Shown here piece after piece: positions 32,635 to 53,840 of a stretch of 64,000 nt of DNA (positions are counted from its first letter, which is position 1; every line of letters starts with the position of its first letter). The position numbers and the translations under genes were made by a program. Location of the stretch: assembly GCF_000979455.1 (NCBI RefSeq), contig NZ_JJOY01000031.1, forward strand, positions 1-64,000, read 5' to 3'. The notes below the pieces were generated by a model. It saw only the letters and a program-made list of their open reading frames with translations. It was not told the DNA's origin and searched no databases. The stretch comes from Methanosarcina sp. 2.H.T.1A.6. Lineage in GTDB: Archaea; Halobacteriota; Methanosarcinia; Methanosarcinales; Methanosarcinaceae.

Positions 32635-32639
32635 ATTAA

Positions 32640-36307: not shown

Positions 36308-36564
36308 ATAATGACTCTTCACTCTATTATATAATCAGTTGTTTCTATTAAAATTAAAATATATACTGGTGTTACAATCCTTGATGTAAATAACTGAAGG
36401 AGTCTGACTGTTACTTGGGATATTTTGAAACTCTTACTGATTGGGGGTAAAATTGGTTTGGGATATGTTCAATACGATCGATCTCAAATTCGGGGAGTTA
36501 GATTTTAAACTGCTTATGTGAAATGACATAGATACTAACTAAAATTACATGTTTGAGGAATTTA

Positions 36565-38295
36565 ATGAAAACTAGTCTATTGACACGATTTGTTTTGTTA
36601 TCAACATCTTTTACTTTCTTAATGATAACTATTTCCCTAATCTATCTTGAAATAAATCCCGTAATGGGTTATGAAATCTCGATTTATTCCTCTACACCTT
36701 CCATTTTTTGGATTTCAATGATTTTGGGATTAATCAACGGATTTTTATTGACTTATCTTGGAATAACTGATCAAATCAAAAGAGCCCATATTCTGGGTAT
36801 ATTTGAAATACTTTTTGTTAACTCTCTAGTCCTTTTATTATCTGCCTTACGGGACTATATTGTTAATCTATTGCGAGGAGACGCACCATCATATATCGGC
36901 CTTGTAAAGGATTTGACTATTCATGGAAACCTAACCGACGACTTTTATCCTTTCGTATCTATAATGGTTTCTCAGCTTCATCAAATTTCAAATATTTCCA
37001 TAGTCTCGCTTGCAAAGTATATTCCAACTCTCTTTTACATATTTTCTATTCTTTCAATTTACTGTCTCAGCAAATCACTGATTTGTGACAAAAAATTTAT
37101 TTTCTTCTCAGTTATTGCTGCTACACCTTTATTTTTTGCATGGTTTTCAACAGCCATGTATTACATGTTGTTATCAGTTTTTACTTTACCATTACTTTTT
37201 TACCTTTTAACTAAACTTGAAGATATGCGTTTCAGGCTTTTGATTATTATTTTCTGTTTTGTTTTTCCTTTATTCCATCCCATTACAGCTATAGTAGTAA
37301 TATTATATCTATTTCTTTCATATCTCGTTCAAAGATATCCATTCAGTGATACTAAAAATTATTATATACCTGCTACATTGGTGATTTTGTCATCAGTCTC
37401 CTTGATCTTTTGGTTTAGCAATCAGTATGCTGTCACTCGATCATTTTTCATAATTGTAGCGAATCTTTTAGGAATATTTCAAGCCAACTCTACCTTTACT
37501 CAAGCTACTTATTATTCTGAAAAATTAGGTTTTATCTCAACTATTTATACACTTTCACATCTGATACTTGATGAAATGATATTTTATTCTTTAGCAGTCG
37601 TTGCAATATATCTCATAATTTTTAAAAAAGGTTCCCTCGAAAAAAGGATATTTGCGCCATTCATAGCTTGTTTCATAACAGGAACTCTACTGGTAATGTT
37701 TCTTTTTTGTTTTACTGTTGCTCATAGACCTGACAGATTACTAAACTTGAACTTCAATATGATGCTTGCCCCACTTTTTGTAGCCTATCTTCTCTATCTA
37801 AATCATAAAAATCGATTAAAGACAGTTTTATTAATAAGCTTAATTCTTCTTGCTACAGTTTCTACTTACTTTTCATTATATCAATCACCATTTACCACGA
37901 GACCAAATGACTATATGACTCTTAGTGAGTATCATGGTTCAAACTGGTTATTGTGCAATAAAAATTTTCTCATTCATACAGTTGATTTAGCAAACCCTAT
38001 TTCTAGATATGCAGATTTCACTTATGGGGTAACATATAGAGCGCTTAGAAAGGATTTGAAAAGAGAATATTTATTGCCCGATCATTTTGGATTTGCCACC
38101 CCGTTTGATAATCGCTTTCCTATTGACAGAGATAGATATCTGGTTCTTTCTCCATATGATGAAGAAGCTTATACTAATATATGGGGACATACTAAAAGAT
38201 TCAATAAAGATGATTTTGGAAAAATAGATGAATGCCAAAATACTTTAAAGATATTTGATGACGGTGGTTTTAAAACATATTTGATAAGAGTGTGA
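36565..38295 (+). CDS. Multi-pass membrane protein, polymerase or glycosyltransferase candidate
   Basis: 576 residues with about 12 hydrophobic segments to residue 440, then a soluble domain of about 130 residues. A loop after the fourth segment holds RGDAPSYIGLVKDLTIHGNL, which resembles the acidic first extracellular loop of GT-C enzymes; the position suits a GT-C transferase or a Wzy-like polymerase. No family-specific motif settles the choice. GAGG lies six bases before the ATG. It stands between the glycosyltransferases and the flippase. Confidence 0.72.
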   Translation: MKTSLLTRFVLLSTSFTFLMITISLIYLEINPVMGYEISIYSSTPSIFWISMILGLINGFLLTYLGITDQIKRAHILGIFEILFVNSLVLLLSALRDYIVNLLRGDAPSYIGLVKDLTIHGNLTDDFYPFVSIMVSQLHQISNISIVSLAKYIPTLFYIFSILSIYCLSKSLICDKKFIFFSVIAATPLFFAWFSTAMYYMLLSVFTLPLLFYLLTKLEDMRFRLLIIIFCFVFPLFHPITAIVVILYLFLSYLVQRYPFSDTKNYYIPATLVILSSVSLIFWFSNQYAVTRSFFIIVANLLGIFQANSTFTQATYYSEKLGFISTIYTLSHLILDEMIFYSLAVVAIYLIIFKKGSLEKRIFAPFIACFITGTLLVMFLFCFTVAHRPDRLLNLNFNMMLAPLFVAYLLYLNHKNRLKTVLLISLILLATVSTYFSLYQSPFTTRPNDYMTLSEYHGSNWLLCNKNFLIHTVDLANPISRYADFTYGVTYRALRKDLKREYLLPDHFGFATPFDNRFPIDRDRYLVLSPYDEEAYTNIWGHTKRFNKDDFGKIDECQNTLKIFDDGGFKTYLIRV

Positions 38296-38557
38296 TATGA
38301 TATGGAAAATGCCAGAGCAAGCCAGTTATTTCGGCTTTTAATTATGAGCATGTTTCTAGATTTATGTGGTTTAATTTACTTCAGAGGATTTTCACAGAAT
38401 CCGCATTTAATTAAGCAAAAATAAACGTGAGTAATTCATAAGGCGCATGCTTATCCAGAAATTGAATACATTGGTTCGATATATTGTTTTGGAGCTAAGT
38501 ATAACCTCAAATTGAAGCCGGAAAATCAAAAGTTTTGAATTTATAATAGAGAGAGTT

Positions 38558-39877
38558 ATGATCAGCGAATATGTTAAATTTAAGAAAGAGTCGTTCTTCA
38601 TATCAAAAAATAAACTTGCTACTGTTTACAGGAAGCTATTTGCCCAAAAAACGAGTGCAGAAGTAAAGAATATTTTCAAAAACATATCATATGTTACCGC
38701 TGGAACTGTTATCGAAGCCATCAGCTGGTTTCTATTTAATGTTTTATCCGGAAGATATTTAGGCCCGGATGAATATGGCAAATTCATACTTATTCATTCA
38801 GTAGGGATGTTTTTATATTTACCAATGATACTTGGAGTAGGCACCGGGATTATTAAATATACTTCCGAAAAAATTGATTTTAATCGACAAAGCAGTATAA
38901 TAACCACATCACACATAACTGTGCTGATTTTATCTGTTTTATGTAGCTGTATATACCTTAAGTTTTCAACGGCACTGATGAAAATTTTTTTGATATCTCA
39001 AAATCTTCTTAATTTAGGAATTATTTTTGCGATTATATATTCTTTTTACATAATAACCACGAGTACACTTCAAGGTATCTTCCAGATAAGGAAATATGCA
39101 ATTTTAAAGCCAGTTTGCAGTTTAATTATACTGATCTCATTTCTGATTTTTGTGTTAAGTGAAACACTTTCTTTTGAGTCGCCTATTATCTCAATGTGTG
39201 TAGCTTATTTAATAACAGGGAGTATTATCCTCCTGTCAATTCAGAAATATCTGAGATCTCAATTTTTTGATTTTCAATGGGCAAAAACTCTCGTAAAATA
39301 TGGAATTTTTTCGTTCCTTAGCGCAGTGTCATATATTGTCTGTACCAACATTGATAAAATATTGATTAACAGATACCTTATGATCGAAGACGTAGGCTTG
39401 TTCAACGCATACTGCATCTCCTCATTGAAAATAATGAGTATGTTTTCGGGAATTCTAGTAACTGTTTTGTTTCCTTTAATATCAGGACACGAAGAAAAGC
39501 GATCTATATTAAAGAGATATAAATCACTCGTTCCCTACATTATACTTTTAGGGATTCCCATAATGGCAATCACACAGATTATAACATTAAAACTTTATGG
39601 AGATAATTTTGAACTAAACTTAAGACTTGTACTTCTTTTTAGCATGACAGCTGTGCTTTTTTCATGGTATGATATTTACGGTTGGATTTTTAACTCAATG
39701 GGAATAAAAGGTGCAAAGCTGACCATGTATGGAACTATTACGATAGCTGTAGTAGACATAATTCTTGACATTTATCTTATCCCTCGTTTTGGACTTGATG
39801 GGTCAATTATCGCCACTGCAATTTCTTATTGTGCAGGCTTAACTGTAATTCATATAAAAAGACCATACAGGACTTAG
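38558..39877 (+). CDS. Wzx-like polysaccharide flippase
   Basis: 439 residues, about 12-14 membrane segments, of the MOP superfamily: SYVTAGTVIEAISWFLFNVLSGRYLGPDEYGKF is the characteristic first-helix region, and VKYGIFSFLSAVSYIVCTNIDKILINRYL the middle repeat. It would move lipid-linked repeat units across the membrane. Start ATG with GAGAG upstream. The 3' side passes into a degenerate region with an IS-like end at 40255-40318. Confidence 0.88.
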   Translation: MISEYVKFKKESFFISKNKLATVYRKLFAQKTSAEVKNIFKNISYVTAGTVIEAISWFLFNVLSGRYLGPDEYGKFILIHSVGMFLYLPMILGVGTGIIKYTSEKIDFNRQSSIITTSHITVLILSVLCSCIYLKFSTALMKIFLISQNLLNLGIIFAIIYSFYIITTSTLQGIFQIRKYAILKPVCSLIILISFLIFVLSETLSFESPIISMCVAYLITGSIILLSIQKYLRSQFFDFQWAKTLVKYGIFSFLSAVSYIVCTNIDKILINRYLMIEDVGLFNAYCISSLKIMSMFSGILVTVLFPLISGHEEKRSILKRYKSLVPYIILLGIPIMAITQIITLKLYGDNFELNLRLVLLFSMTAVLFSWYDIYGWIFNSMGIKGAKLTMYGTITIAVVDIILDIYLIPRFGLDGSIIATAISYCAGLTVIHIKRPYRT

Positions 39878-40254
39878 CAAAGGGTTCAAGATGGATTTCA
39901 TAGATCGTTCCATCGATACCTGGATTTATTCTTTTTCCAATCACTTGAGAACTTGCGCTTTCAGGTCTTTAAAGGAAGAAACCATTTTCCAAGGAAGAAA
40001 TCCCTCCTTGCGTAACCTGCCGTATTTTCAATCTGGCCTTTTGTCTGAAATCTGTATGGCCTGCACAAACGGAGAATAAAACCAGAGGGTTTGAACCATC
40101 CTAAAGGCCTGTTGTTTGCGGCTTCCGAATTAACTTTAGATATTTGAGAGTGGTAATATCCCTAATGTAATACAAAACATGATCGGAACATAATGCTGCT
40201 ATCAATATCAAAAAATTTGCACTCATAGTATCTGAGGTAGAGTTTGGAGAATCG

Positions 40255-40318
40255 TTTTTTCTGTAGAATGAGGGATGAACCAAGAAGTCCCTAAGTCTTT
40301 AGCTTAGGAGTAGTTCAC
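40255..40318 (+). mobile_element. Solitary IS200/IS605-like right end (copy C)
   Basis: The run aatgagggatgaaccaagaa leads into a stem tccctaag / cttaggag with loop tcttta, then tagttcac. This is the clearest match to the 3' end of a TnpB-associated omega RNA and right end. No TnpB frame lies upstream; 39878-40254 contains only a 62-codon frame of doubtful value (39891-40079). The hairpin resembles copies A and D. Confidence 0.6.
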
Positions 40319-40404
40319 TTTCGTGGTATGTCCTCATATAGGTGGAAAGATATATCTAAGTCTACAGGACATCCAAAAAAAATTTACTCAATGGGGCAGG
40401 TATA

Positions 40405-40686
40405 ATGTTTAAATATATTATGGCACATGGTACATATTTATATAGCTCATCTTTTTATAATTTACTTTTTTTCACGACGGCCGTAGGGATTCCTAAGTAT
40501 ACAGAAGCGATAGCCTTACCACTTTTTTTGCTCCTTTCTTTAAAATTAATTTTACAAGGATCTAATCTATGGAATAGAACTCTGGCAACGTTCCTTGATC
40601 TGGCAATTTATCCACTTTTGTTTCTTTATGGTATAGTAGTCATTTTTAAAGTTGCAAATGTAGTTGCTCAAAATTATCCCAGTTAA
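40405..40686 (+). CDS. Small membrane protein, 93 aa
   Basis: 93 residues with two to three hydrophobic stretches (FYNLLFFTTAVGI, AIALPLFLLLSLKLIL, LDLAIYPLLFLYGIVVIFKV). GGGGCAGG precedes the ATG. No family is recognised. It lies between the flippase and the beta-helix protein and may belong to the polysaccharide unit, but no conserved residue points to a function. Confidence 0.55.
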   Translation: MFKYIMAHGTYLYSSSFYNLLFFTTAVGIPKYTEAIALPLFLLLSLKLILQGSNLWNRTLATFLDLAIYPLLFLYGIVVIFKVANVVAQNYPS

Positions 40687-40890
40687 TACTAAACTGTACT
40701 GCATTTTTTTCAACAGAATGACCTGAGTATCTAAGTCTTGTAAAAAACAATCTCGGTGGAAAGATACTTTTGCTGTATAAAATCATGCAAGAAAGTATTT
40801 CCAAGGTATGTGATTAAAGAAATACCATTACTTGAAGTTGTAATGTTAGCAGCAACAACGAGGTTACATTAGGTTTTAGGATGATCCCTT

Positions 40891-42639
40891 ATGAAATATT
40901 CAAAAACTTATTTGGCAGTATTTGTTCTTGCTCTATTATACATTACATTAACTAGCCCTGTCCCTCTGGTGTCAAACATCACAATTGACGATGGTGCTGA
41001 ACCGGTTGTTAACCCTACTCATTTGATGTCAAATATCGCAATTGATGATGGGTCTGAACCGATTGTTAATCCTACTCATTTGGTGTCAAACATTATAATT
41101 GATGATGACGCTGAGCCCGCTGTCTCTAATTTGTATCTGACGTCTGACTATACGGATGACGCTGCTTGCATTCAAGCGGCGCTAGACAACTTAAAAAGCG
41201 GAGGTACAATAACTATCCGCGAAGGAGACTATTATATAACAAAACAAATATCTCAAAAAGACAAGAGTCTGAATATAATAGGTGAAGGAGAAGTAACTCT
41301 TCATCTTCAAACTGCCGAAAGTCCGGATAGTGTAATATTTTTTACTGGATCAATGATCACAAACGAACCTCTCTCTGCTGACGCTGACAAAGGTTCGTCT
41401 CAGTTGGTTTTAAATGATGCTTCACAGGTTCGTAAAAACGATCTAATTAAGATCTGGAAAAATGTTCAGTGGTGCCCTCTGGATTATCCTGACCAAATGA
41501 CAGGAGAAATGTATTCGGTGCAAAGTGTGAACGAAAACGTTGTCACTTTAAATCAGTCGCTCCTGAGGGATTATAAATTACATGAGATTGTCCAGGCTGA
41601 AATATACAGACCGATCGAAATACATATAAAAAGTATAAGTATACAGGACAGCGGTGCTACAACATCACATCATGGTCTGGCTTTGAGGTATTGCAAAGAT
41701 AGCTCTGTTACTGACTCCTTGTTCAAAGATAGTGGATACGTCGCCATTTCCTTTTATTCCTGTTTTAATGTGGATGTTAATAATAATGAAATTTACAATT
41801 CAATTTTTCCAGGGAGTGGATACGGAGTGGCGGTGTGGAGCGGATCGGCATTTGTTAATATCGACAATAATTACATAGAAAACTGTAGGCATGCTATAAC
41901 AGGCAATACGGATGAACGTAAGGCTTTAAATCGAGACGTTTTTATTAATAATAATACTCTGATAGGAGCTAACATCAAAGGTGCCAATGTAATTGATGCT
42001 CATCCTGTTACTATTAATTATATCGTAACTAAAAATAAAATATATCCGCAGCTTCCGTATTTTTTTGCGTTTCTTGACGGTACGCAATACTCAGAATTTT
42101 CCGAGAATGAAGTCTACGGGGGGTATGGCGCAGTCGCAAGAAGAGGTAGCGTAAATGACGGAGTCCATATAATAAAAGATAATACTATGGATGGAATTGC
42201 TGGATATACTTATCAATCAGGTGAAAACGGCATTGGAGATACGCTTATAATTATGAATAATACTCAAAAAGGTGGAGAATACGGGATTATTTTCCAAGAT
42301 TCTGAAAGCTTTAGGAATATAATAATAAGCAAAAATAAATTTAGCAATATCTCACGTCAAGGAGTATATAAGAAGCTCTTTATAAATGGAGTGAATCTGG
42401 AAATTTCTGACAATGTTTTTAAAAATATAAAAAGAGATGGGGTATATATAGACGGGAATTCTTTTACAAATGCGGCTGTCAAAATACATAATAATACTTT
42501 TATAAACGTATATCCCTTCAGTTCAGGTTCCAAAATCACAATCAAGAACATTCAAAATGCTTCTGTTAGCGGAAATCATATTCTCAATGCTCCTATTGCT
42601 ACTTTTTTGGCATTGCCAGCTTCAGGAATGCACCCTTAA
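40891..42639 (+). CDS. Secreted right-handed beta-helix protein, 3' end broken
   Basis: 582 residues. Signal sequence (about residues 1-25), then three tandem 19-residue repeats (SNITIDDGAEPVVNPTHL and variants, residues 27-85), then a pectate-lyase/NosD-like beta-helix: AACIQAALDNLKSGGTITIREGDYYI is the usual first turn, followed by many short NN-rich rungs (NNEIYNS, DNNYIEN, NNTLIG). It probably binds or modifies surface polysaccharide. The stop falls exactly where a PKD domain would begin; the frame shift is described in the next entry, so the protein is probably a truncated version of a longer one. Confidence 0.78.
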   Translation: MKYSKTYLAVFVLALLYITLTSPVPLVSNITIDDGAEPVVNPTHLMSNIAIDDGSEPIVNPTHLVSNIIIDDDAEPAVSNLYLTSDYTDDAACIQAALDNLKSGGTITIREGDYYITKQISQKDKSLNIIGEGEVTLHLQTAESPDSVIFFTGSMITNEPLSADADKGSSQLVLNDASQVRKNDLIKIWKNVQWCPLDYPDQMTGEMYSVQSVNENVVTLNQSLLRDYKLHEIVQAEIYRPIEIHIKSISIQDSGATTSHHGLALRYCKDSSVTDSLFKDSGYVAISFYSCFNVDVNNNEIYNSIFPGSGYGVAVWSGSAFVNIDNNYIENCRHAITGNTDERKALNRDVFINNNTLIGANIKGANVIDAHPVTINYIVTKNKIYPQLPYFFAFLDGTQYSEFSENEVYGGYGAVARRGSVNDGVHIIKDNTMDGIAGYTYQSGENGIGDTLIIMNNTQKGGEYGIIFQDSESFRNIIISKNKFSNISRQGVYKKLFINGVNLEISDNVFKNIKRDGVYIDGNSFTNAAVKIHNNTFINVYPFSSGSKITIKNIQNASVSGNHILNAPIATFLALPASGMHP

Positions 42640-42785
42640 ACGTCGCCTTTACTGACACAAATCAAAACTCACCTGTTGCCTGGAGAAACGTTGAAGAATA
42701 TTCTGCGGTAGATCTGAAAAAAAGAATGTGGCAAAGTCAGGATAATTACCTCAAAGTCAAGATAATTACCTCAAAGTCAAGATAA
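42627..42785 (+). pseudogene. Out-of-frame PKD-domain remnant
   Basis: In a different frame the sequence after the beta-helix reads NAPLNVAFTDTNQNSPVAW, a typical PKD-domain opening. It directly continues the in-frame LPASG if one A is added near 42627. After that the PKD core (WDFGDG) is absent and a 20-base tandem repeat follows, so the 3' part is decayed. The rest of 42796-43166 shows no gene. Confidence 0.6.
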
Positions 42786-42795
42786 TTACCTCAAG
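42734..42795. repeat. Three-copy 20-base tandem repeat
   Basis: Three copies of aagtcaagataattacctca (first with one change) inside the decayed 3' region of the beta-helix gene. Confidence 0.9.
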
Positions 42796-43166
42796 GGTAA
42801 TTTTGCCTCCTTGATCAAAGTCACATTTGAGCCTCCGATGGCAATTCATGAATTAGTTTTGGAGCGGTTTTAAATACAAATCCAGGACAACATTCCTGCC
42901 CAAAAGTGATGATCAGATCAATTATCAAAAAAGGTAGGGAAAAGTGCTTTCATTCCATGTGCCTGGTATTCTAAGGATTTCATGTTCGTTTTGGAAGCCT
43001 TCAGATTTTCAGTCTCTCCAATTTGTATATCGAGCTGATCCCAAAACCAATTTTATTCTCAAAAATCAGTAAAGTTTCAGAACTATTTTTTCATGATCTG
43101 AAACTTGATAGATTATTCGGAATACGGGATTACTCTAACCTATAAAACAGATAGCAATAAGGCGGC

Positions 43167-43469
43167 TCAGTAGTTCTCAAGAACAGAGCCGACAATGTTT
43201 TTGTAACTCTCTTTCAGGGAATAGACGTTGTGGTCCCCGGTGACATTTATGCTCAGGATTCCAAGTCTGGTATTCATAAGCCCGACCATGGCTGACACTC
43301 CCCGGTAACTTACCTCGAATTTTCCTTTATCAAGGTAGTCATAAACTTCACCGGTGGTGAACTTGTCTCCGGTCAGGAAGAGATTGAGCACAACCTTGCG
43401 TATCCCGTTTTCATCCCTGCCGAGATACTTTATCAATCTCGCTCTTACCCTTTCTTCCGCAGTCTGCAG
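43167..43469 (-). CDS. DUF2551-type winged-helix-like protein, apparent CTG start
   Basis: About 100 residues, resembling an archaeal DUF2551 protein: LIKYLGRDENGIRKVVLNLFLTG and VYDYLDKGKFEVSYRGVSAMVGLMNTRLGIL suggest a winged helix that may bind DNA. The first standard start is a TTG at 43436, but the open frame continues upstream as LQTAEERVRARL, which extends the first helix naturally. There CTG at 43469 has GAGGTG seven bases before it, much better than anything before the TTG. So CTG initiation is likely. The protein is isolated between accessory regions and has core-like codon use. Confidence 0.75.
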   Translation of the reverse strand: MQTAEERVRARLIKYLGRDENGIRKVVLNLFLTGDKFTTGEVYDYLDKGKFEVSYRGVSAMVGLMNTRLGILSINVTGDHNVYSLKESYKNIVGSVLENY

Positions 43470-44269
43470 TTTCGGACACCTCAGTTTTAATGATAATTTG
43501 AATTATATTCTTTTATTTGAGTTATATTCTTTTAATATTGTATTCTTCCCATTCTGGTTGTTATTTCCAAACAGATGCGACCCTTAAGTAGGGGCGCTAA
43601 GAATCGAATACCCTATATCCTTATCGTTTATATATTTTAGGATTACTTTTGTTTAAATATTTATACTGAAGTATATTATGGATATACAGATATGTTATGA
43701 AGATCCACCGACCAATTCAGAAAAGGATGAAACCTCATAATTTTTATATCTCGAACCTTCAGCCTAACACAACAGGAATGCAGTGAAGGTTAACTGTCAG
43801 TTACTATACCTGAGATGGTGCCCTTCTTGAAGATCCATTAGATCCATTTGTATTGCAGAATAACATCTTATGTATAAGTAGTTTACAGTAGAAATTGGTG
43901 GAAATAATTTTTAACTAATGCTGCCAGTTCAGCCTGCAAGCAGAAAGACGACAGGGGATAATTAGAAAAGGGATGATTAAAAGTATAAATCACGGATTAA
44001 GTTGCTTTGTTAAAATTACCTGAATAAGCAACCTGAATCTGATTTGGTCCTATTTGTCTGGAGTTGTCCAGGGTTCTTTGAATATAAGATTGTGGATAGT
44101 CATAATAAAAGAAAGTAAGCTGCCGCAGTAAACAGGATTATATATCAACGCTATCTGGCGCACACAGCCCTGAAATTTATTCAGAAGCAGCTCATTAGTC
44201 ATTTTCCTGTCTTCCAGTTTGCGGCAAGGCAGTAACACTCTTTTCAATTTCAATTATTTGTGCTTTTAC

Positions 44270-44473: not shown

Positions 44474-44667
44474 GTATTAAGGATACTGATAAAAATGATC
44501 TATACACAGAGTCAATTTCCATGGTTTTGGAGATTCTGGAGAAATTGCTACCATCGAACTTAGGATTTTTGGCTGAATGAAAATAGAAAGTCTTTTTATC
44601 TATTTTCACCAGTTGTAAATATGAGCTTTCATATACAGTCAATTGTAGTAAATATATTGTGAGCTGC

Positions 44668-45348
44668 ATGTATTCTGAGAATTTGATGACACTCTCTTTC
44701 GTTCCTCTGGAAAATATACCCCGCTTATGGGAACAAAACGATGTTCTTATCTTTCTTATTGATCTGGATAATTATGACACATTAAGTATGGAATGTCTCA
44801 ACAGTATTGAAAGAGAATATCTGAAAAAACTTCAAACAATGTATTTCAAAAAAAGATATATTGTCTCCAGAATGGTTTTGAAACATGTTCTATACCATCT
44901 GCTTAACAAAAGTTCTGTCCTGGATATCTCTACATATAAAGACGAGTGCGGACAAGTCCATATACTCAACCATGAAGAGTTGCACATATGCATATCCTAC
45001 TCTGAAAATGTTGTAACTCTTGCAATATCAAAAGTTGAGGTTGGTATTGATGTCGAAATTAAAAGATCACTAACACTAAAAAATACTTTAAAATACTTTC
45101 AAACAACATTTTCCTGCACCGAAAAATCTGCCCGCGACGCCGACATTTTGAGGGCATGGACTATGAAAGAGGCTTATTGTAAGTTTTCTAATAAAAACAT
45201 ATTTTCCATTCTCAGCAAAGAGCCGGACTTCAATAATATCTGTTATTTAAGCTATTTATTAGACAATAAATACATCTTTTCTGTCATTACTGATTCGGGT
45301 CCACATACTATTAATATAAGTCGACTTGAGAAAATCAACTACGTTTGA
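44668..45348 (+). CDS. 4'-phosphopantetheinyl transferase (Sfp-like)
   Basis: Attaches phosphopantetheine from CoA to a carrier protein serine. About 226 residues. The two signature motifs are present: GIDVEIKR (near residue 130) with the Mg-binding Asp and Glu, and WTMKEAYCK (near residue 168) with the catalytic Glu/Lys. A carrier protein gene lies 300 bases downstream, its obvious partner. The start is uncertain: GTG at 44659, ATG at 44668 or ATG at 44686. The gap to the next gene (45349-45644) is AT-rich with a TATA-like string near 45540. Confidence 0.87.
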   Translation: MYSENLMTLSFVPLENIPRLWEQNDVLIFLIDLDNYDTLSMECLNSIEREYLKKLQTMYFKKRYIVSRMVLKHVLYHLLNKSSVLDISTYKDECGQVHILNHEELHICISYSENVVTLAISKVEVGIDVEIKRSLTLKNTLKYFQTTFSCTEKSARDADILRAWTMKEAYCKFSNKNIFSILSKEPDFNNICYLSYLLDNKYIFSVITDSGPHTINISRLEKINYV

Positions 45349-45644
45349 AGTAAGAATGTTTGATAAAATCAGGTAAAAAAGCATAAGAGATCAAGGAATA
45401 ACCCATTTTAACTTCTCTGAATAACTTTATTATTTTATTATAAAACTGTATGGATCAAGTGCCATAACCTGATACGTTTAAGTTCCTTTTAATTTCTTTT
45501 TTTCCAATGATTTTTTAGCACGCAATTGTTCAAATTATTTATATAGTTGTATTACATAATTACCTGTGGGGCTTTCAACCACTATAGACAAAGTGTGTGT
45601 TACGTGCGATTAATGATCTTATTTGAGTAAAGGGGTAAGATTGT

Positions 45645-45890
45645 ATGGAACAGATAAAGAATGGCATACTTGATTATTTGAAGGATAATTCTTTCATGGA
45701 GCGGGGAACTGTTCTTAGAGACAGTGATTCTCTCACTCAGAACGGCATCATAGATTCTATCGGTTTACTCGAATTGATAGATTATATCTGTGAAACATAT
45801 TCTATCGAAATTCCTGAAGATATGCTAACTCCGGAGAATTTCGATTCTCTACAGGGGATCACTGACCTGATAACCAGACTGGCGAAGTGA
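45645..45890 (+). CDS. Acyl carrier protein
   Basis: 81 residues, four-helix carrier protein. NGIIDSIGLLELIDYI supplies the attachment serine (Ser38, in DSIG), and FLEDNSF-like first helix and IPEDMLTPENFDSLQGITDLI complete the fold. GGGG precedes the ATG. Stop and next start are adjacent (TGAATG), so it is co-translated with the AMP ligase. Archaea lack bacterial fatty-acid synthase, so a dedicated carrier with its own transferase and ligase is unusual and implies a special acyl or aminoacyl intermediate. Confidence 0.9.
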   Translation: MEQIKNGILDYLKDNSFMERGTVLRDSDSLTQNGIIDSIGLLELIDYICETYSIEIPEDMLTPENFDSLQGITDLITRLAK

Positions 45891-47375
45891 ATGGTTATGA
45901 GAATTGATGCTTATATCACTGAACACGCCAGAAAAACTCCTCACCAGACTGCCCTTGAAGAGGGTAAAAATTCCATTTCTTACAGCTGTCTTGATGAGGA
46001 TATAAACATAATTGCCTCATCTCTGATTGACTTTGAGCACTGCAGATTTGCAATACTGGCTGAGTCCGGGACACAATACATAAAGGCACTTATGGCAGTA
46101 TATCGGTCAGGCAACATCGCAATACCCCTGCCAATCGAATTACCGGGGTTAAGCCTTGAACGAATTCTTGATGCTGCATGCATTAATAACATAATTGCAA
46201 CGAAAAAACAGTACTTAAGATTTGGAGATGGATTTTTTGAGCGTTTTGGAACTGTGATCGTTGTTTCAGATGATACTGCAGTGGAGACCTGCAGCAAAAG
46301 AGTGATACTCGAGAGAAACAATCCAGAACTGAGGCTGGTGCTTTATACCTCAGGTACAACAGGCACTCCTAAAGGAGTTATGTTGAGCGATAAAAACCTG
46401 GTATCAAATGCCAGATCAATAATCGAGGTTCTGAGCATAACCCCTAAAGATAAAGCAGCACTGGTAATCTCTCCCCATCATGCCTTTGGGAATTCAATAA
46501 TCAATTCCCACCTGATGGCTGGAGGCTCGATCCACACCGGGACAATGAATTTCATAGACCCGGTTTTTAATCTCATTGAATCCGGAGTATCCATATTCTA
46601 TGGAGTGCCCAGCACCTATCGTATTCTTCTCAGATATCCGGAAAGGTTCAAAAAAGCCTTTGCAAATGTCAGGACCGCTGCATCTGCTGGCGGAGCTATG
46701 GACAGGGTTATTGTACGGAGTATCAGGGAGTTAAGTCCAGGTACGCAGATTCTGCCAATGTACGGCCAGACCGAAGCCACAGCAAGGCTTGCCTACTTAC
46801 CAGTAGAAGACGTGGACAAATTTATCGATACGATAGGAAAGGCGATTCCCGGGGTCACACTGGAGGTCTTTGATTTTGAAAACCTGCCATTAAATCCCGG
46901 CATCTCAGGCGAACTTGTTGCCAGGGGGGACAATATCCTGCTGGGTTACCTGAATGATGAAGCTGCAACTGAAAAGAGGGTCATCGACGGGTGGCTGCAT
47001 ACAGGGGACCTGGCGCAGAAACTTCCGGGCGGGTACATCAGGCTGCTTGGACGTAAGGACGACCTCATTAAAATAGGCGACCACCGGGTTAACCCGAGAG
47101 AAATCGAAAAAGAGATCGAAATGAACAATGAGGTTTCCAGCGTTTTTGTTGTGCCTGTTTCCCATGAGCTTATGGGCAACGCAATCAGCCTCATGGTCAT
47201 ACCAAGTCAGGAAACTAAAGTTGATGAAATTTTTGCTTTTTGCAGGAAGAACCTGCCGGGATACCTGTACCCCAGGGAGATCCTCTTCATTGACCATCTT
47301 CCGCTGAGCGAGAACGGAAAAATCTCCAATAGGTCCATTATAGAGGAGTACCAGCATGTCAAAGCTAGCATGTAA
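45891..47375 (+). CDS. AMP-forming acyl/aminoacyl ligase
   Basis: 494 residues of the ANL superfamily. Core motifs are LVLYTSGTTGTPKGVMLS (phosphate loop, about residue 150), MYGQTEATARLAYLP, GWLHTGDLAQKLPGGYIRLLGRKDDLIKIGDHRVNPREIE (hinge and C-terminal domain) and LPLSENGKISNRSI with the catalytic Lys. It would adenylate a carboxylic acid and load it on the carrier protein encoded just upstream. The substrate pocket cannot be read by eye. A second ATG two codons later is possible. It overlaps the next gene by 20 bases. Confidence 0.92.
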   Translation: MVMRIDAYITEHARKTPHQTALEEGKNSISYSCLDEDINIIASSLIDFEHCRFAILAESGTQYIKALMAVYRSGNIAIPLPIELPGLSLERILDAACINNIIATKKQYLRFGDGFFERFGTVIVVSDDTAVETCSKRVILERNNPELRLVLYTSGTTGTPKGVMLSDKNLVSNARSIIEVLSITPKDKAALVISPHHAFGNSIINSHLMAGGSIHTGTMNFIDPVFNLIESGVSIFYGVPSTYRILLRYPERFKKAFANVRTAASAGGAMDRVIVRSIRELSPGTQILPMYGQTEATARLAYLPVEDVDKFIDTIGKAIPGVTLEVFDFENLPLNPGISGELVARGDNILLGYLNDEAATEKRVIDGWLHTGDLAQKLPGGYIRLLGRKDDLIKIGDHRVNPREIEKEIEMNNEVSSVFVVPVSHELMGNAISLMVIPSQETKVDEIFAFCRKNLPGYLYPREILFIDHLPLSENGKISNRSIIEEYQHVKASM

Positions 47376-48372
47376 AAAGTGTGTTCTGAATTCGGATATT
47401 CCGGGCATAGAAATTAACGAAGAAAGCGGCCTCTGCCATTTTTGTGAGACTTATGTCCCTCTTTCTTCAAAGGAAAGGGAGCAGTACCTTAACAGGATTG
47501 AAGAACTCTTCAAAGAATACAGCGGCAGGGGCAATTATGATGTGATATTTGCACTTTCAGGTGGAAAAGACTCTTCATACACACTTTACAAACTCAAAAA
47601 AGACTACCCCTTCCTGAAAGTACTTGCTGTCCAGTTTGATAATGGGTTCACTTCAGATTATGCCGTAGTAAATGCAAAGAAAATGTGTGAGATTACAGGA
47701 TGCGACTATTTTAAACTGACAATGGAAACAGAGGTCCTGTACGAGCTCTTCCGAAAGGCAGCCGAATCCTATGATGCATTCCCGAAGTTTGCCAAATACA
47801 GAGCAAGCGACATATGCAATATCTGCATCAGCGTCATCAAACAGAAATTGCTGGAACAGGCCATAGTTCAGAATGCTCCTTTTGTTGTATTTGCCTTTAC
47901 AGCAGGACAGTCGCCCAATCCCATAATCAATCTGTCAGCTAATTTTATACAATGGTCAAGGAATCTTTTTGAAAAGCAGCTTCAAAAAATAGGTGTTGAT
48001 GACAGGGATGAGCAGTTCCTCATTAAAAATGAGGTAATTAAAAATATCGGTGAAGTTGCTCCATCCATTCTGCATCCGCTCTGTCTGTGGGAATATAGTG
48101 AGGACAAAGTGATTGAAACAGTAATGGAGCTCGGGTGGAAAGCTCCCGACCTTAATGACAGTAATTCAACTAACTGTACGCTGAATTCTTTTGCATGCCA
48201 TAATCACCTCGAAAAGTACGGCTTCCATCCATATGCCTTTGACATAGCAGGGCTTGTCCGAAGCGGGGAAATGTCAAGGGAAGAAGGGCTGGAAAAACTT
48301 CATCAGGAACTATCGCAGCCGCTGATAGAGGAAGCTGCAGAGAAACTTGAAATAAAGATAAATCACTCATAA
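47356..48372 (+). CDS. PP-loop amidotransferase (WbpG/PseA-like)
   Basis: 338 residues, ATP-pyrophosphatase fold. Two Cys pairs near the N-terminus (CKKC at 6-9, CHFC at 27-30) suggest a zinc site. The PP-loop is SGGKDSSYTLY at 68-78. Further Cys (CNICIS, and CTLNSFACHNH near the end) may bind metal. The arrangement resembles N-acetyl-sugar amidotransferases that make acetamidino or amide groups on surface sugars with ammonia from a HisH-like partner, but no such glutaminase is nearby. GAGGAG provides the ribosome site within the upstream gene. Confidence 0.8.
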   Translation: MSKLACKKCVLNSDIPGIEINEESGLCHFCETYVPLSSKEREQYLNRIEELFKEYSGRGNYDVIFALSGGKDSSYTLYKLKKDYPFLKVLAVQFDNGFTSDYAVVNAKKMCEITGCDYFKLTMETEVLYELFRKAAESYDAFPKFAKYRASDICNICISVIKQKLLEQAIVQNAPFVVFAFTAGQSPNPIINLSANFIQWSRNLFEKQLQKIGVDDRDEQFLIKNEVIKNIGEVAPSILHPLCLWEYSEDKVIETVMELGWKAPDLNDSNSTNCTLNSFACHNHLEKYGFHPYAFDIAGLVRSGEMSREEGLEKLHQELSQPLIEEAAEKLEIKINHS

Positions 48373-48535
48373 AAGAGCCGGCTGAAAGTTTAATCCGATA
48401 TTCTTTCAGCAAAGAGTTATTCTTTATATGCCCAGTTATTTTTAATAAATGATCCGGGGATTCAATATATTATTGCATACAGTTTAAAAGTATAACTAAC
48501 TACCATAACAAATAATCGATCAGGGGAGTAATACT

Positions 48536-49600
48536 ATGCAGATAACCGGGAGTAGCGTAGCGCAGACTACAGAGGGTAATATCGCGCAGTTATCAAAAAA
48601 TAATACCGGGCGGTTAACGGACAGCAGTAATACGCAGATTATGGATGAATTGAACAGAGATGCTGATAAGCTTGCTGAAAGACTCAGGGGTTTTATTAGA
48701 GGTCAGATCACGGCCTTTAAGAAAAAAGGAGTGGTTCTGGGGGTTTCGGGGGGTATTGATTCAGCTGTAGCCCTTACGCTTTGCGTACAGGAGTTCGGCA
48801 AAGAAAACGTATACGGCCTTCTCCTCCCTGAAAAAGAATCTGCTCCTTCAAGCAAAACCCTGGGGGCAGAAATCTGTGAAAGCCTGGGAGTTTCATATGA
48901 GGAGGTCCCGATTTCTCCAATCATTGAGTCTCTTGGCATCTATAACAAAAAGGAACAGATAATAAAAAGGACCTGTCCGGAATATGACCCCGAAATACAT
49001 AACACCTCACTCGTGCTGCCTGATTTCCTTAATCAGGGATTGTTGAACGTTCCTCATATCAGGTTGATAAAAGACGGGGAAACGGTTGCCAGGCACAGGT
49101 TGAGAGCAAACGATTATCTGGAATTGATAGGGCTGCAGAATGTTAAGCAGCGGTCCAGAATGATAGTCCAGTATATGTATGCCGAAAAGATGAATTACGC
49201 TGTTTGCGGCACAACCAACAAGACCGAACTTGTCCTTGGCCAGTTTGTTAAATATGGAGATGGAGGTGTAGATCTCGAACCTTTTGCAGACTGCTATAAG
49301 ACTCAGATCTATGCTCTGGCAAAACACCTCAGGGTAAATGAGGAAATTATAAAGCGCCCGCCAAGTGCCGACACATGGAGCCATTATACAACTGATGAGG
49401 AGTTCTACTGGCGTATGCCCATACACATCCTGGATCAGCTCCTGTATGCCCAGGAACATAAACTGCCTTTAGAGATCACTGAAAATAACACTGGCCTGCC
49501 CAGAGATACCATAGAAAAAGCCTGGAGGCACGTTGACAGAGTAAGAGATAGCACAGAGTATACACGGGCTGCTCCTCCAATCTGTTATCCGGGCATATAA
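48536..49600 (+). CDS. NAD-synthetase-like ATP pyrophosphatase
   Basis: 354 residues. NadE-type PP-loop GVSGGIDSAVALTL at about 69-82, and AVCGTTNKTELVLGQFVKYGDGGVDLEPF near residue 220, typical of NAD synthetase. But archaeal NadE is about 250-270 residues; here a 50-residue polar N-terminus and a large insertion (about residues 110-190, with EYDPEIHNTSLVLPDFLNQG) are present. It adenylates a carboxylate and amidates it; the location in a carrier-protein cluster suggests a different substrate from nicotinate. GGGGAG precedes the ATG. A housekeeping NadE role cannot be excluded. Confidence 0.78.
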   Translation: MQITGSSVAQTTEGNIAQLSKNNTGRLTDSSNTQIMDELNRDADKLAERLRGFIRGQITAFKKKGVVLGVSGGIDSAVALTLCVQEFGKENVYGLLLPEKESAPSSKTLGAEICESLGVSYEEVPISPIIESLGIYNKKEQIIKRTCPEYDPEIHNTSLVLPDFLNQGLLNVPHIRLIKDGETVARHRLRANDYLELIGLQNVKQRSRMIVQYMYAEKMNYAVCGTTNKTELVLGQFVKYGDGGVDLEPFADCYKTQIYALAKHLRVNEEIIKRPPSADTWSHYTTDEEFYWRMPIHILDQLLYAQEHKLPLEITENNTGLPRDTIEKAWRHVDRVRDSTEYTRAAPPICYPGI

Positions 49601-49741
49601 GTCACATGGAGCAAATGCTTCATTAAATGTGGTGCCTGCCAGAAAAGCCATTTGAGGGTTTTTCCTCTTAATGGTCAACAAAATCAACATTCGAAGTCAA
49701 CGTTAACTCAATCAGCAATTCTGAAGGATAAGCGTCAACTA

Positions 49742-49776
49742 CCTCTGAGCTAAAGACTCAGGGGTTTCCTGCTGAG
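49742..49776 (-). mobile_element. Solitary IS200/IS605-like right-end hairpin (copy D)
   Basis: Reading on the minus strand: stem ccctgag / ctcagagg around tctttag, then tagttgac. It matches copy A (27831-27874) almost base for base, including the stretch up to the neighbouring ATG. No TnpB or transposase is adjacent. The element directly precedes the DUF362 gene, whose TGAGG ribosome site falls at its edge. Confidence 0.6.
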
Positions 49777-49781
49777 GTTTT

Positions 49782-50915
49782 ATGAACACCAGAGTTTCCA
49801 TTGTACGCTGTTCCGACTATTCGGGTGTAAAAGGTGCAATTAAGGAGGCACTCAACCTGATAGGCGGGCTTGAGAGCGTTATATCTCCGGGTAATCGCGT
49901 GCTTCTTAAACCCAATGTACTTGCGATCCGGCCTCCGGAGGATGCCGTCACCACTCATCCTGCAATAGTCTCTGCAATGTGTGAACTGGTCCTGGAAGCA
50001 GGAGGTATTCCTGTTATAGGGGACGGGTCAGGGATTGCGAAACCGGGTTCTACGACGACTACGGAGGCTTTTCGTGCATCGGGGATTGAAGGTGTAGCAT
50101 CCGCTGTCGGCGCAGAGCTTATCAATTTCGAGACCTCCGGTTACACTGAGGTTTCTGTTCCCAACGCCAGGCATTTCCCACGCCTGTACGTCGCAAAAGC
50201 AGTCCTTGAGGCTGATGTGGTAATCTCACTTCCAAAACTCAAGACGCATGAACTGACACTCTATACGGGGGCTGTCAAAAACTTCTTTGGGGCAGTGCCT
50301 CAGAAAATAAGAAAGCAGGCACATGCCCTGGAAGATCGTGACCGTTTTGGACATGCTGTTGTCGATATCTACTCTATCGCCAAGCCTCATCTTGCAGTTA
50401 TGGACGGCGTTTTCGGAATGGAAGGGAATGGACCTTCGAATGGCACACCTGTACTTGCAGGCGTGGTCATGGCAAGTTATGACTGTGTATCCCTGGATAT
50501 CGTAGCCTCTGAGCTTATAGGAATCAATCCTTTAAAAGTTCCTACAAACAAAGCTGCGCTCTCAAGAGGGTTCGGCACCAGGCATCCGGAAGTTGCAGGA
50601 GTGCCTCTGCAGGAGGTAAGTCTCAGGTTTAAAAGGTCGGAAGGTGGAATTACTGCCTACATGCCGTCTTTTCTTATTGGAATTCTTCGAAAGCAATTAA
50701 CTGTAAAGCCTTTTATCAACACGTCAAACTGTGCGCTTTGCAAAGCCTGCGTTATGAATTGTTCAGCGCATGCAATTGAGGAAGTGGGAAGAACACTAAA
50801 AATTAACCAGCAAAAATGTATCCAATGCTACTGCTGTCGCGAACTGTGTCCGAATGATGCAGTAGAAATAAAAAAGTCTTTACTCCTTAAAATTGTAACC
50901 CGAAGTAAAACCTGA
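49782..50915 (+). CDS. DUF362 protein with C-terminal ferredoxin domain
   Basis: 377 residues. The DUF362 domain covers about residues 1-290 (RVLLKPNVLAIRPPEDAVTTHPAIV, KLKTHELTLYTGAVKNFFGAVP). The C-terminal 60 residues hold two 4Fe-4S motifs (CALCKACVMNC and CIQCYCCRELC). Family members are uncharacterised redox proteins. TGAGG precedes the ATG and lies in the IS-like end fragment. It follows the NadE-like gene by 180 bases and may form part of the same unit. Confidence 0.85.
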   Translation: MNTRVSIVRCSDYSGVKGAIKEALNLIGGLESVISPGNRVLLKPNVLAIRPPEDAVTTHPAIVSAMCELVLEAGGIPVIGDGSGIAKPGSTTTTEAFRASGIEGVASAVGAELINFETSGYTEVSVPNARHFPRLYVAKAVLEADVVISLPKLKTHELTLYTGAVKNFFGAVPQKIRKQAHALEDRDRFGHAVVDIYSIAKPHLAVMDGVFGMEGNGPSNGTPVLAGVVMASYDCVSLDIVASELIGINPLKVPTNKAALSRGFGTRHPEVAGVPLQEVSLRFKRSEGGITAYMPSFLIGILRKQLTVKPFINTSNCALCKACVMNCSAHAIEEVGRTLKINQQKCIQCYCCRELCPNDAVEIKKSLLLKIVTRSKT

Positions 50916-51056
50916 TAAGATCATTACATGATAAGATAATCATAATCTCACTTCTTTCAAAATTGTATATTTTATAATCTCAATTAATGTGGTTCAAACT
51001 TCAATTAATGTAGTTCAAGACTGACTATAGGAAATATATTTATCGGTGGAAAAACA

Positions 51057-51110
51057 ATGAAAAGCAAGTGTCGGGGATTTTTTCACCGCAAAATGGGGAG
51101 TATTATATGA
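51057..51110 (+). CDS. Possible 17-codon leader peptide
   Basis: A short frame (MKSKCRGFFHRKMGSII) whose stop overlaps the acyltransferase start as ATGA. A GGTGG string lies about seven bases before its ATG. It could be a coupled leader or chance; the acyltransferase has its own GGGGAG site. Confidence 0.25.
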   Translation: MKSKCRGFFHRKMGSII

Positions 51111-51640
51111 CCGCCTTAGTATCAAACAGAGATAAAGTAACTTTTGGTGAAGTAGCTGATCATTACCATAGCAATAAACTCGTCTTTGGAATGAAGTACT
51201 TTAAGAACTGGGTTCTGGAACGTGTTGCATCGTGGTTTCCGATTCCTTCATGGAGAGCGAAATTTCATAAAATGCGAGGCGTGAATCTCGGAAAAAACGT
51301 ATATGTCGGCTATGATGTGGTCTTTGACAGGCTTCACCCTGAAATGATCACAGTGGGAGATTACTCTGAAATAGGAGACCGCTGCATCCTCTCAGCTCAT
51401 TCCAGAGGTAGCCTGACCACAAGACAGGCATATCCGAGGACTATAGATCCCATAAAAATCGGAAGTGGAGTTTCTGTAAATCCTGGATGTATAATCACCC
51501 AGGGAGTCGAGATAGGGGATAACTCGATAATTGGTATTGGATCTGTGGTTACCCGTGATATCTCTCCAAACAGTCTTGCTCTGGGTTATCCGGCTCGAGT
51601 CGTTAAAAAGCTCGACGGTGTAGGCGAGCTTCAAACCTGA
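51107..51640 (+). CDS. Hexapeptide-repeat acyltransferase
   Basis: 177 residues from the ATG at 51107 (GGGGAG upstream). Left-handed beta-helix protein with [LIV]G-x4 turns in the second half: VNPGCIITQGVEIGDNSIIGIGSVVTRDISPNSLALGYPARVVKKL, and the probable catalytic His in LSAHSRGSL. It resembles WbbJ/maltose O-acetyltransferase-type enzymes that acetylate sugars using acetyl-CoA. Here an acyl-carrier donor is conceivable because of the carrier gene 5 kb upstream. Last gene of the cluster. Confidence 0.87.
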   Translation: MTALVSNRDKVTFGEVADHYHSNKLVFGMKYFKNWVLERVASWFPIPSWRAKFHKMRGVNLGKNVYVGYDVVFDRLHPEMITVGDYSEIGDRCILSAHSRGSLTTRQAYPRTIDPIKIGSGVSVNPGCIITQGVEIGDNSIIGIGSVVTRDISPNSLALGYPARVVKKLDGVGELQT

Positions 51641-51780: not shown

Positions 51781-52365
51781 TCATTTTTCCGCTCTGTAAC
51801 TGAATTCAAACCCAAATCGACTCAAAGCAAACAGTGCCATTAATATTACCATGAATATAAAGAAAACAGATACAAAAGATGCTGTCAGATAATAAAATAA
51901 ACCGGCCCCTGTGAATTCTGCATTCATTAGTAAGAATACACTGGTAGGTTTATTGTAAAGCGGATAGAGATAAGGACAGTATGCTTCAGTTATATCATCT
52001 AACAGCAGGTGCGTGAGGAAAGCAGATTCTGCAAAAATTGCCATGTATACCGCTTTATTGAGCTCCCTGTATGCAGCATATCCGACAATCCCTCCGAACA
52101 GAATTGCAGTAGAACTGAACAGCAATGAATGTGTCGGGATCGGGCCAACCCAGCAGTGTTGTAAAGTGCCGTTTATGAGCAGATTATATACAACTATTAG
52201 ATCCGGGAACATAGTGCATAAACCACCTACAAACATCAGCAATAGTAGCTTCCTTGAGTCTCTGAATGAGAGCTCTCCGCGAGAGAGCGCTTTTGTTATA
52301 GCATATATGGCTACCGCGCCGATGCAAAACAAAAAAAACAGAACATGTACGACCGGATATGGCAT
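51781..52365 (-). CDS. DUF457-type membrane-bound metal-dependent hydrolase
   Basis: 194 residues with five or six hydrophobic segments. The family motifs are FPDLIV near residue 50, PTHSLLFSS near residue 74 and LTHLLLDDI near residue 115; their His and Asp are likely metal ligands (YdjM-like). The ATG at 52365 has GGGGG upstream, and an ATG six codons earlier is less likely. The function of the family is not established. Convergent with the acyltransferase. Confidence 0.75.
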   Translation of the reverse strand: MPYPVVHVLFFLFCIGAVAIYAITKALSRGELSFRDSRKLLLLMFVGGLCTMFPDLIVVYNLLINGTLQHCWVGPIPTHSLLFSSTAILFGGIVGYAAYRELNKAVYMAIFAESAFLTHLLLDDITEAYCPYLYPLYNKPTSVFLLMNAEFTGAGLFYYLTASFVSVFFIFMVILMALFALSRFGFEFSYRAEK

Positions 52366-52602
52366 AAGGACCCCCTTTTCCAAATTTATGGCTTATTTTT
52401 TCACACGAAACGGATCTGAGAGCATTTAGGATCTTCCATATCTAATCAAACCAGAGAGAAGATTAGTAGCTCTCTAAACTCTATTGGTCTATCTTCTATA
52501 AGGCCCATCTTCTATAAATTTTTATCTATGTGCCGGTCCGCTGAAAAAATCTTGTCCTGCTTTCTTTAAAAGGAATTTGGATTTAAGTCCGGGCAGACGC
52601 CC

Positions 52603-53664
52603 TCATAGAGGAATAAGTTCTACAAGCAGCCCGTCTTCAAAAGGATGCCTTTCAATTATGAAAAGCTTTGTTCCAAGGGGTTCAAGTTCTTCTTTGAGTC
52701 CGTCCTTAAGGTCTTCGAGCACCCACCAGGCGATCTCAATTTTTCCTTCCTTTATTTCATATAGTTCGTCAGGAACTTCTATCTCCCTGAGGATCTCTTT
52801 TGCAAGTTCCTGGTCCCCTTCGTTGATAACCCCATAGATAAGAGTGCCTTCTTCCGTGACCTCGTCAAATTCTCTTGCTGTGTTTTTTGCAATCCTCTGA
52901 AACCTTTTGCGCAGCTGGACTGCATCCTTATAAGTCGAAGAACAGAAATGCACTCTTTTGCACGTACTAAAGGCAGTTTTAGCATAAGTATGGGACCCGG
53001 CAGCAGCACAGGAAATGTCTGTTTCCAGGGAAAACCCATTTTCATGAAGGGCATTTGAGTTATTATCAGAAAATTCCAGTTCGTTCAGGTTGAGGAAAAT
53101 TCCCATTTCCTCTGCAAAAGCCGCAACTTTCTCTGCACCTTCAAGGGAAGGAATTTCTATTCCGGTTTCTATTCCCAGATCTTTTGCATTTCGCAGGGTA
53201 TCTGCATAGGGGCTTTGCATGAGCTCTCCCCAGACAGCCTGTGGAGGATGGAAGCGGATTTCGTCAAGGCCTGCTTCTGCTAACTTTTCAAGGGTTTCCC
53301 TCTCAGGAGCAAGAGACGTATAAAGATGAATATGATGAGCTTTTCCAAAAGAGGACTTAAGCAGGCAGATGTAGTGCAGGACTCTCTCCACTTTAAGTAG
53401 AGGCTCTCCACCAGTAATCCCTGTCCCGAGGGCGTCCATAAGCTCAGCTTCCTTTAACAAATCCTCATCGCTTTTTACAAGCCTTTCGTTTGCAAAAACC
53501 AGGTCTTTTCCACGCCTTTCATCGGAAAGTGGGCAGTAAAAACAGTTTTTAGGGCAAAGGCCAGTTACAAAGAGCACCATTTTGGCGCCCTGCTGGCAGA
53601 GCCTGCAGCCTTCTGAAAGGTAACTGCAAAAGGAGCCAGTCTCATCTTCTGTGAACTTTTCCAT
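52603..53664 (-). CDS. Radical SAM protein (COG2108-like)
   Basis: 353 residues. CPKNCFYC at 37-44 is the radical SAM CX3CX2C motif, followed by GTGITGGEPLLKVERV (glycine-rich SAM site). Three Cys just before it (13, 20, 23) may bind a second metal. It resembles archaeal proteins related to pyruvate-formate-lyase activases, of unknown substrate. A TATATAA box at 53691-53697 lies 27-33 bases before the ATG at 53664, so the mRNA is probably leaderless or nearly so. Longer frames upstream run through repeats and are not used. Divergent from the ferredoxin gene. Confidence 0.85.
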   Translation of the reverse strand: MEKFTEDETGSFCSYLSEGCRLCQQGAKMVLFVTGLCPKNCFYCPLSDERRGKDLVFANERLVKSDEDLLKEAELMDALGTGITGGEPLLKVERVLHYICLLKSSFGKAHHIHLYTSLAPERETLEKLAEAGLDEIRFHPPQAVWGELMQSPYADTLRNAKDLGIETGIEIPSLEGAEKVAAFAEEMGIFLNLNELEFSDNNSNALHENGFSLETDISCAAAGSHTYAKTAFSTCKRVHFCSSTYKDAVQLRKRFQRIAKNTAREFDEVTEEGTLIYGVINEGDQELAKEILREIEVPDELYEIKEGKIEIAWWVLEDLKDGLKEELEPLGTKLFIIERHPFEDGLLVELIPL

Positions 53665-53690
53665 ACCTGAGACTGCATATTCTTTTGTCC

Positions 53691-53697
53691 TATATAA
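53691..53697 (-). promoter_or_regulatory. TATA box of the radical SAM gene
   Basis: TTATATAG on the minus strand, 27-33 bases before the ATG; transcription would begin at or a few bases before the start codon. Confidence 0.5.
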
Positions 53698-53840
53698 GGC
53701 TTGTTTCCGGATGCCGGCCCTTGCCCCGAATGAGATCTCCCAAATGAAAATGAATTTTTTCGGGCCCGGTTCAGAAATTAATGGTTCAGAAAATAATGGT
53801 TCAGAAATTAATATATCTATCAGACGCCAAAGGATCACTG

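Follow-up and report, generated by a model that had tools for sequence, protein, structure and literature searches.

What does a dedicated acyl carrier protein (ACP) do in a methanogen? Archaea are described as largely lacking acyl carrier proteins (PMC3533463). The question is raised by a seven-gene cluster at positions 44,659–51,640 of the window, i.e., the 64,000-nucleotide stretch of contig NZ_JJOY01000031.1 of Methanosarcina sp. 2.H.T.1A.6 (assembly GCF_000979455.1, genome size 4.07 Mb) that was analyzed. All seven open reading frames (ORFs) were found on the + strand, as an initial annotation made from the letters alone had described, and they encode a phosphopantetheinyl transferase (PPTase), the ACP, an AMP-forming acyl ligase, a WbuX-like PP-loop ATPase, a NadE-like protein, a DUF362-ferredoxin, and a hexapeptide acyltransferase. 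The first five genes form a conserved module. The reading that we favor, tentatively and with somewhat less than even confidence, is a thiotemplated pathway in which an amidated, probably thionated acyl group would be formed on the dedicated carrier and passed to a surface or matrix polysaccharide.

A conserved five-gene carrier-protein module

In a sample of 296 genomes from the phylum, strong matches to the PPTase, ACP, WbuX-like, and NadE-like proteins were confined to an identical set of 23. The initial annotation had proposed a dedicated carrier pathway, unusual in archaea, and had suggested looking for the gene set elsewhere in the domain; this distribution bears out the proposal and reveals strong co-occurrence. 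The core-less genus-mates G001 and G283 lacked all four strong matches. Moreover, the PPTase gene of genus g14 is unlinked to the core and is still present, and thus the association is more than inherited synteny.

The gene order recurred in about 30 Methanosarcina genomes, which excludes chance. The order PPTase–ACP–ligase–WbuX–NadE was kept, followed in most Methanosarcina by the DUF362 and hexapeptide genes, and ligase homologues with 66–92% identity occurred in the majority of the Methanosarcina genomes surveyed, as well as in further genera of this family. The Methanomicrobiaceae, Methanoculleus among them, kept the module genes at 25–61% identity with a rearranged order, the WbuX-like and ACP genes being on the opposite strand and a GNAT acyltransferase gene adjoining the ligase gene. 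A FabG-like reductase gene was located 3' of the NadE-like gene in several genera, including Methanolobus, Methanococcoides, and Methanomethylovorans. Genomes with two or three cores (G022 and G016) carried one PPTase gene each. Among the three core copies of G016 (L016, L017, and L033), one ligase gene is broken, the PPTase gene accompanies only one copy, and two copies lie inside glycosyltransferase/flippase clusters.

The seven genes had been taken as a single set; this stood for the five core genes, while the DUF362 and hexapeptide proteins proved accessory. In the case of the DUF362-ferredoxin (49,782–50,915, + strand; DUF362 match, 2.6e-59), which has two 4Fe-4S motifs, the cluster type was confined to core-positive genomes, and it was classed as accessory because it is missing from genus g3 and Methanomicrobiaceae. 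The intergenic gaps from the PPTase to the hexapeptide gene are 296, 0, −20, 163, 181, and 152 nt. The middle genes had been described as overlapping or abutting, which is correct for the ACP, ligase, and WbuX-like genes and incorrect from the NadE-like gene onward, where the last three gaps lie. Since only those three genes abut or overlap, a single operon is well indicated for ACP–ligase–WbuX only.

The Sfp-type PPTase (44,659–45,348, + strand) likely starts at the ATG at 44,668, where the family match begins, and is followed by the ACP (45,645–45,890, + strand). Both matches were just under the Pfam cut-offs (ACPS, 1e-4; PP-binding, 7.5e-4). The Sfp motifs G-I-D-x-E and W-T-x-x-E-A-Y-x-K were kept across the PPTase relatives, as was the phosphopantetheine serine of the DSIG motif (Ser38) across the ACP relatives, and the genome gave no other match of the ACP type. 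The PPTase genes of two genus-g3 genomes (L020, 3,885–4,568; L031, 4,103–4,741) contain a single in-frame TAG at a position occupied by Gln in a third genome (L021). As TAG is readable as pyrrolysine in Methanosarcinaceae, these two PPTases may contain pyrrolysine or be read through.

We are fairly sure that the five genes work together as a single module, in which the ACP takes its holo form and the ligase charges it with an acid other than an amino acid. Kept as a unit by the majority of the Methanosarcina genomes surveyed and by several sister genera, this carrier-protein pathway in methanogens is real, conserved, and apparently undescribed; no paper describing the archaeal cluster was found within the open-access literature searched. 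A link to methanophenazine was considered and dropped, as several genera of Methanosarcinaceae lack the core.

In the proposed pathway, the PPTase would attach phosphopantetheine to Ser38 of the ACP, and the ligase would adenylate a non-alpha-amino carboxylic acid and load it onto the carrier. The NadE-like enzyme may activate a second carboxylate as an adenylate and amidate it with free ammonia. The WbuX-like protein, a putative Fe-S PP-loop ATPase, would modify the ACP-bound amide, most likely by O-to-S exchange to a thioamide in the manner of CtaC, an enzyme of the closthioamide pathway. A FabG-like reductase might adjust the acyl chain in some genera, and the hexapeptide acyltransferase, or the GNAT enzyme in Methanomicrobiaceae, would move the group to a sugar of an exported polysaccharide. 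The chemical steps, the acid, and the acceptor are all read from gene content, motifs, co-occurrence, and neighborhood.

Probable amide and sulfur chemistry on the carrier

The NadE-like gene (48,536–49,600, + strand) encodes a NadE paralogue of the PRK00876 subfamily (NAD_synthase match, 5.9e-55). A separate canonical NadE on contig C51 scored far higher on PF02540 than the cluster protein. The PP-loop SGGIDS and the GTTNKTE...KYGDGG core are retained in the cluster protein, the canonical DExxLGxxY stretch is replaced, and there is an insertion of ~50 residues, which is common to proteins of a rhizobial operon and absent from canonical NadE. On these motifs, the protein is read as a predicted ammonia-dependent amide synthetase with a substrate other than the NAD precursor.

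The rhizobial operon, which holds the closest operon-borne relatives of the NadE-like protein and has the order asnB-ACP-ligase-nadE, was identified in Rhizobium, Sinorhizobium, Mesorhizobium, and Nitratireductor using tblastn against plasmids, and the order in Azospirillum was glycosyltransferases-ACP-ligase-asnB-nadE-GNAT. The 1.68 Mb pSymB record of S. meliloti contains a single AMP-binding enzyme, which is located in this operon, and thus the operon ligase is SMb20650. The SMb20650 gene has been reported to be cotranscribed with that of the ACP SMb20651, and its product to acylate this ACP in vivo without replacing the long-chain acyl-CoA ligase FadD (PMC7232532). Therefore, the ligase loading step has an experimental precedent. 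SMb20651 itself has been said to need further investigation (PMC5686131). The archaeal and rhizobial sets share the trio of ACP, ligase, and NadE-like protein, the NadE insertion, and, in Azospirillum, the company of GNAT and glycosyltransferase genes. However, AsnB stands in place of the WbuX-like protein in the rhizobial operon, no PPTase gene lies beside it, and the identity is only 27–34%. An orphan rhizobial ACP operon is in this way tied to the archaeal one, and both may make related groups.

Among the archaeal loci, AsnB was found only in L035 (462–5,014), a short contig in a Methanosarcina metagenome-assembled genome with a divergent, rhizobial-operon-like asnB-NadE-ligase set. The NadE gene of this contig is split by a frameshift or ambiguous bases, and the contig is possibly contamination.

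The product of the WbuX-like gene (47,356–48,372, + strand) had been labeled a WbpG/PseA-like amidotransferase, and this label was revised. The WbuX profile matched at 2.4e-35, under its curated cut-off, and the score on TIGR03573 (N-acetyl sugar amidotransferase) was 122.6 bits against a curated cut-off of 203.2. The protein was aligned with four bacterial amidotransferases, three of which lie beside hisH or hisF, and with two WbuX-like domains fused to nonribosomal peptide synthetases (NRPSs). No HisH/HisF partner genes were found in the conserved module neighborhoods, in contrast to the three true amidotransferases beside which they are present. In the tree, the sugar amidotransferases formed their own 100/99 clade excluding the WbuX-like protein, with no firm branching between the latter and the NRPS-fused pair.

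The PP-loop residues 68–73 (SGGKDS) were invariant in the WbuX-like proteins, and the cysteines C154, C157, and C274 were present in all 37 Methanosarcinaceae sequences checked. This triad was also invariant in a 23-row set including Methanomicrobiaceae, as were the Zn-ribbon cysteines C6, C9, C27, and C30. The CxxC motif with a downstream cysteine was common to the WbuX-like protein and the two NRPS-fused domains and absent from the four bacterial sugar amidotransferases. This CxxC...C pattern also occurs, more closely spaced, in the NcsA-type tRNA thiolase of the genome. The two NRPS-fused domains with the triad are plasmid-borne, in Roseovarius (L040, 9,424–17,472) and Streptomyces (L041, 11,935–14,115), and accompany condensation/adenylation modules; the Roseovarius locus adjoins a flippase gene and an acylneuraminate cytidylyltransferase gene.

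The predicted structure of the WbuX-like protein (predicted local distance difference test score, pLDDT, 91) was closest to the Legionella sugar amidotransferase 8wex (Foldseek TM 0.70). Similar to the sugar amidotransferases WbpG, PseA, WbuX, and 8wex, the protein has their overall fold, a PP-loop, a tetracysteine Zn ribbon, and a polysaccharide setting. It differs from them in lacking HisH/HisF partners, in lying outside their clade, in its extra cysteine triad, and in being tied to a carrier protein. CtaC, in turn, an Fe-S PP-loop enzyme, converts amides to thioamides exclusively while they are bound to a carrier protein; it requires the cysteines C154, C157, and C284 and a substrate on the peptidyl carrier protein (PMC6772006). 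The likeness to CtaC includes the PP-loop ATPase, three Fe-S cysteines with like spacing (154/157/284 in CtaC, as numbered in the publication, against 154/157/274 in the archaeal protein, where cluster binding is predicted), a stand-alone carrier-protein pathway without NRPS megasynthases, and an anaerobic host, Ruminiclostridium cellulolyticum in the case of closthioamide. The neighborhood of carrier protein, PPTase, and AMP ligase is likewise present in the methanogen module. However, the archaeal module has no peptide-forming enzymes, and it has the NadE-like amide synthetase and glycan-type acyltransferases.

Since the PP-loop, triad, and carrier setting match, CtaC-like sulfur transfer is the leading guess. 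Judged from these motifs, sulfur transfer by the WbuX-like protein would be at least as likely as amidation, and O-to-S exchange would be likelier than amidine formation; by analogy with CtaC, a thioamide leads an amide or amidine as the probable product. The protein, at first sight a sugar amidotransferase, is now read as a probable Fe-S enzyme for the carrier-bound transfer of sulfur or nitrogen.

It is possible, though on the whole unlikely, that the module performs amidation only, the WbuX-like enzyme converting a carboxylate or amide of the acyl-ACP, with ammonia, to an amide or amidine for the polysaccharide. The N-acetyl sugar amidotransferase fold and the score on TIGR03573 agree with this, as does the amide former AsnB in the WbuX-like place of the rhizobial operons. 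However, the HisH/HisF glutaminase partners are missing, the score is under the cut-off, the clade is separate, and no role in amidation is known for the invariant CxxC...C triad, which does not occur in the aligned amidotransferases.

A likely link to surface polysaccharide

The hexapeptide gene (51,068–51,640, + strand; Hexapep match, 4.4e-10) encodes a left-handed beta-helix acyltransferase, a proposed acyl-ACP:glycan transferase. The protein was found in 10 of 12 core-positive genomes, in two of them unlinked to the core, and in none of six core-negative genomes. In two genus-g3 genomes, the gene lies far from the core and adjoins genes for a flippase and beta-helix secreted proteins, one of which bears a disaggregatase-related domain; the g3 loci also carry an ATP-grasp-like protein or a large membrane protein. 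Disaggregatase is the enzyme that degrades methanochondroitin, the matrix of Methanosarcina aggregates. The co-occurrence of the hexapeptide gene even where it is unlinked, with flippase and disaggregatase-related genes as its neighbors, supports a decoration of the matrix polysaccharide.

Moreover, disaggregatase-related proteins (PF06848/PF08480) adjoin the module in L014, L019, L056, L064, and L069, and the neighbors of the core in L013/L016/L017, L068, L077/L078, and L056 include glycosyltransferases, flippases, WecB/WecC-like enzymes, or sugar dehydrogenases. Sugar genes adjoin the core in Methanolobus, Methanoculleus, other lineages, and Azospirillum. The product of the module is likely used on a surface or matrix polysaccharide. 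The initial annotation had suggested such a link from the neighboring genes; the link gained support from the other lineages, but not from the low-GC polysaccharide island upstream in the window, which is not syntenic in close relatives.

That island (30,001–44,000) holds genes for an ATP-grasp protein, a DegT aminotransferase, two glycosyltransferases, a polysaccharide flippase (38,558–39,877, + strand; synteny not conserved), and a secreted right-handed beta-helix protein (40,891–42,639, + strand). Its GC content of 0.31–0.37 is below that of the surroundings (0.42–0.49), which suggests horizontal gain.

A small secreted or intracellular metabolite, such as a siderophore-, signal-, or antibiotic-like amide or thioamide with incidental polysaccharide neighbors, is an improbable product. 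The thiotemplated logic is that of closthioamide (PMC6772006), glycan genes are usually absent beside the rhizobial operons, and up to three module copies occur per genome, all of which suit a metabolite. However, the unlinked acyltransferase gene still co-occurs and is then found among polysaccharide genes, several lineages have glycan genes next to the module, and the cluster showed no dedicated exporter.

Several observations weigh against the favored pathway to a thionated polysaccharide decoration. With regard to the acceptor, the adjacency of sugar genes was assessed at the module loci only, and in most Methanosarcina the core is flanked by unrelated genes, the polysaccharide genes not being syntenic. 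With regard to the chemistry, the cluster has neither a condensation domain nor a peptidyl transferase or sulfur donor gene, though CtaC acts on peptide amides, and AsnB at the WbuX-like position in the bacterial relatives fits amidation as well as thionation. After 8wex, the nearest folds of the WbuX-like model are the 4Fe-4S thiolases NcsA, TtuA, and LarE. Furthermore, an archaeal PP-loop protein with a CxxC...C pattern (LCLGC ... FDCLVDS; L106 of G170), from a genome without the ACP, forms a third separate branch.

We know of no thioamide decoration in any polysaccharide. The most specific form of the favored pathway, a first archaeal thiotemplated thioamide pathway in which a CtaC-like Fe-S enzyme would act on a stand-alone carrier and the group would be joined to methanogen matrix polysaccharide, is doubtful. 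The module suggests how methanogens may modify the polysaccharide matrix of their aggregates, a matter of interest for aggregation and for the chemistry of the cell surface. The question is open to direct test by deleting genes in laboratory strains of Methanosarcina, of which M. acetivorans very probably has the module.

The ligase, its substrate, and neighboring genes

The ligase gene (45,891–47,375, + strand; AMP-binding match, 1.5e-54) encodes a protein that retains Lys477 of the A10 motif. In the alignment, Phe199 stands at the position of the alpha-amino-binding Asp of NRPS and Dlt adenylation domains, and an alpha-amino acid substrate is thus unlikely. The nearest structures by fold to the predicted ligase model were malonyl-, feruloyl-, and oxalyl-CoA synthetases; the model has a pLDDT of 80.8, and residues 194–211 were too weakly modeled for reading the pocket. 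The likeness of the model to malonyl- and oxalyl-CoA synthetases may give a faint hint of a short diacid substrate.

The first genes had also been compared with D-alanylation, and although the Dlt system of teichoic acid similarly has an AMP ligase and a small carrier feeding a surface polymer, and DltA models match the ligase at 2.4e-44 (below cut-off and below many other ligases), a Dlt-like D-alanylation or aminoacyl decoration, in which the ligase would load an amino acid for esterifying a wall polymer, is highly improbable and appears largely refuted by the sequence, given the non-amino-acid type of the ligase (Phe199), the lack of any MBOAT (DltB) or DltD gene among the cluster ORFs, and the extra PP-loop enzymes of the module, Dlt itself having no NadE- or WbuX-like enzyme.

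The structures 8weu, 8wev, and 8wex were considered as parts of one pathway, and this was rejected; the titles of 8weu and 8wev give a feruloyl-CoA synthetase of Amycolatopsis, and 8WEX alone is described, as a Legionella amidotransferase (PMC10607449). IorAB-like genes upstream of the core in L007, L013, and L017 were not counted in the module, as they are not conserved elsewhere. Genes on the − strand at 51,781–53,838, encoding a YdjM-like membrane protein and a radical SAM protein, adjoin the cluster in most Methanosarcina and not in other genera.

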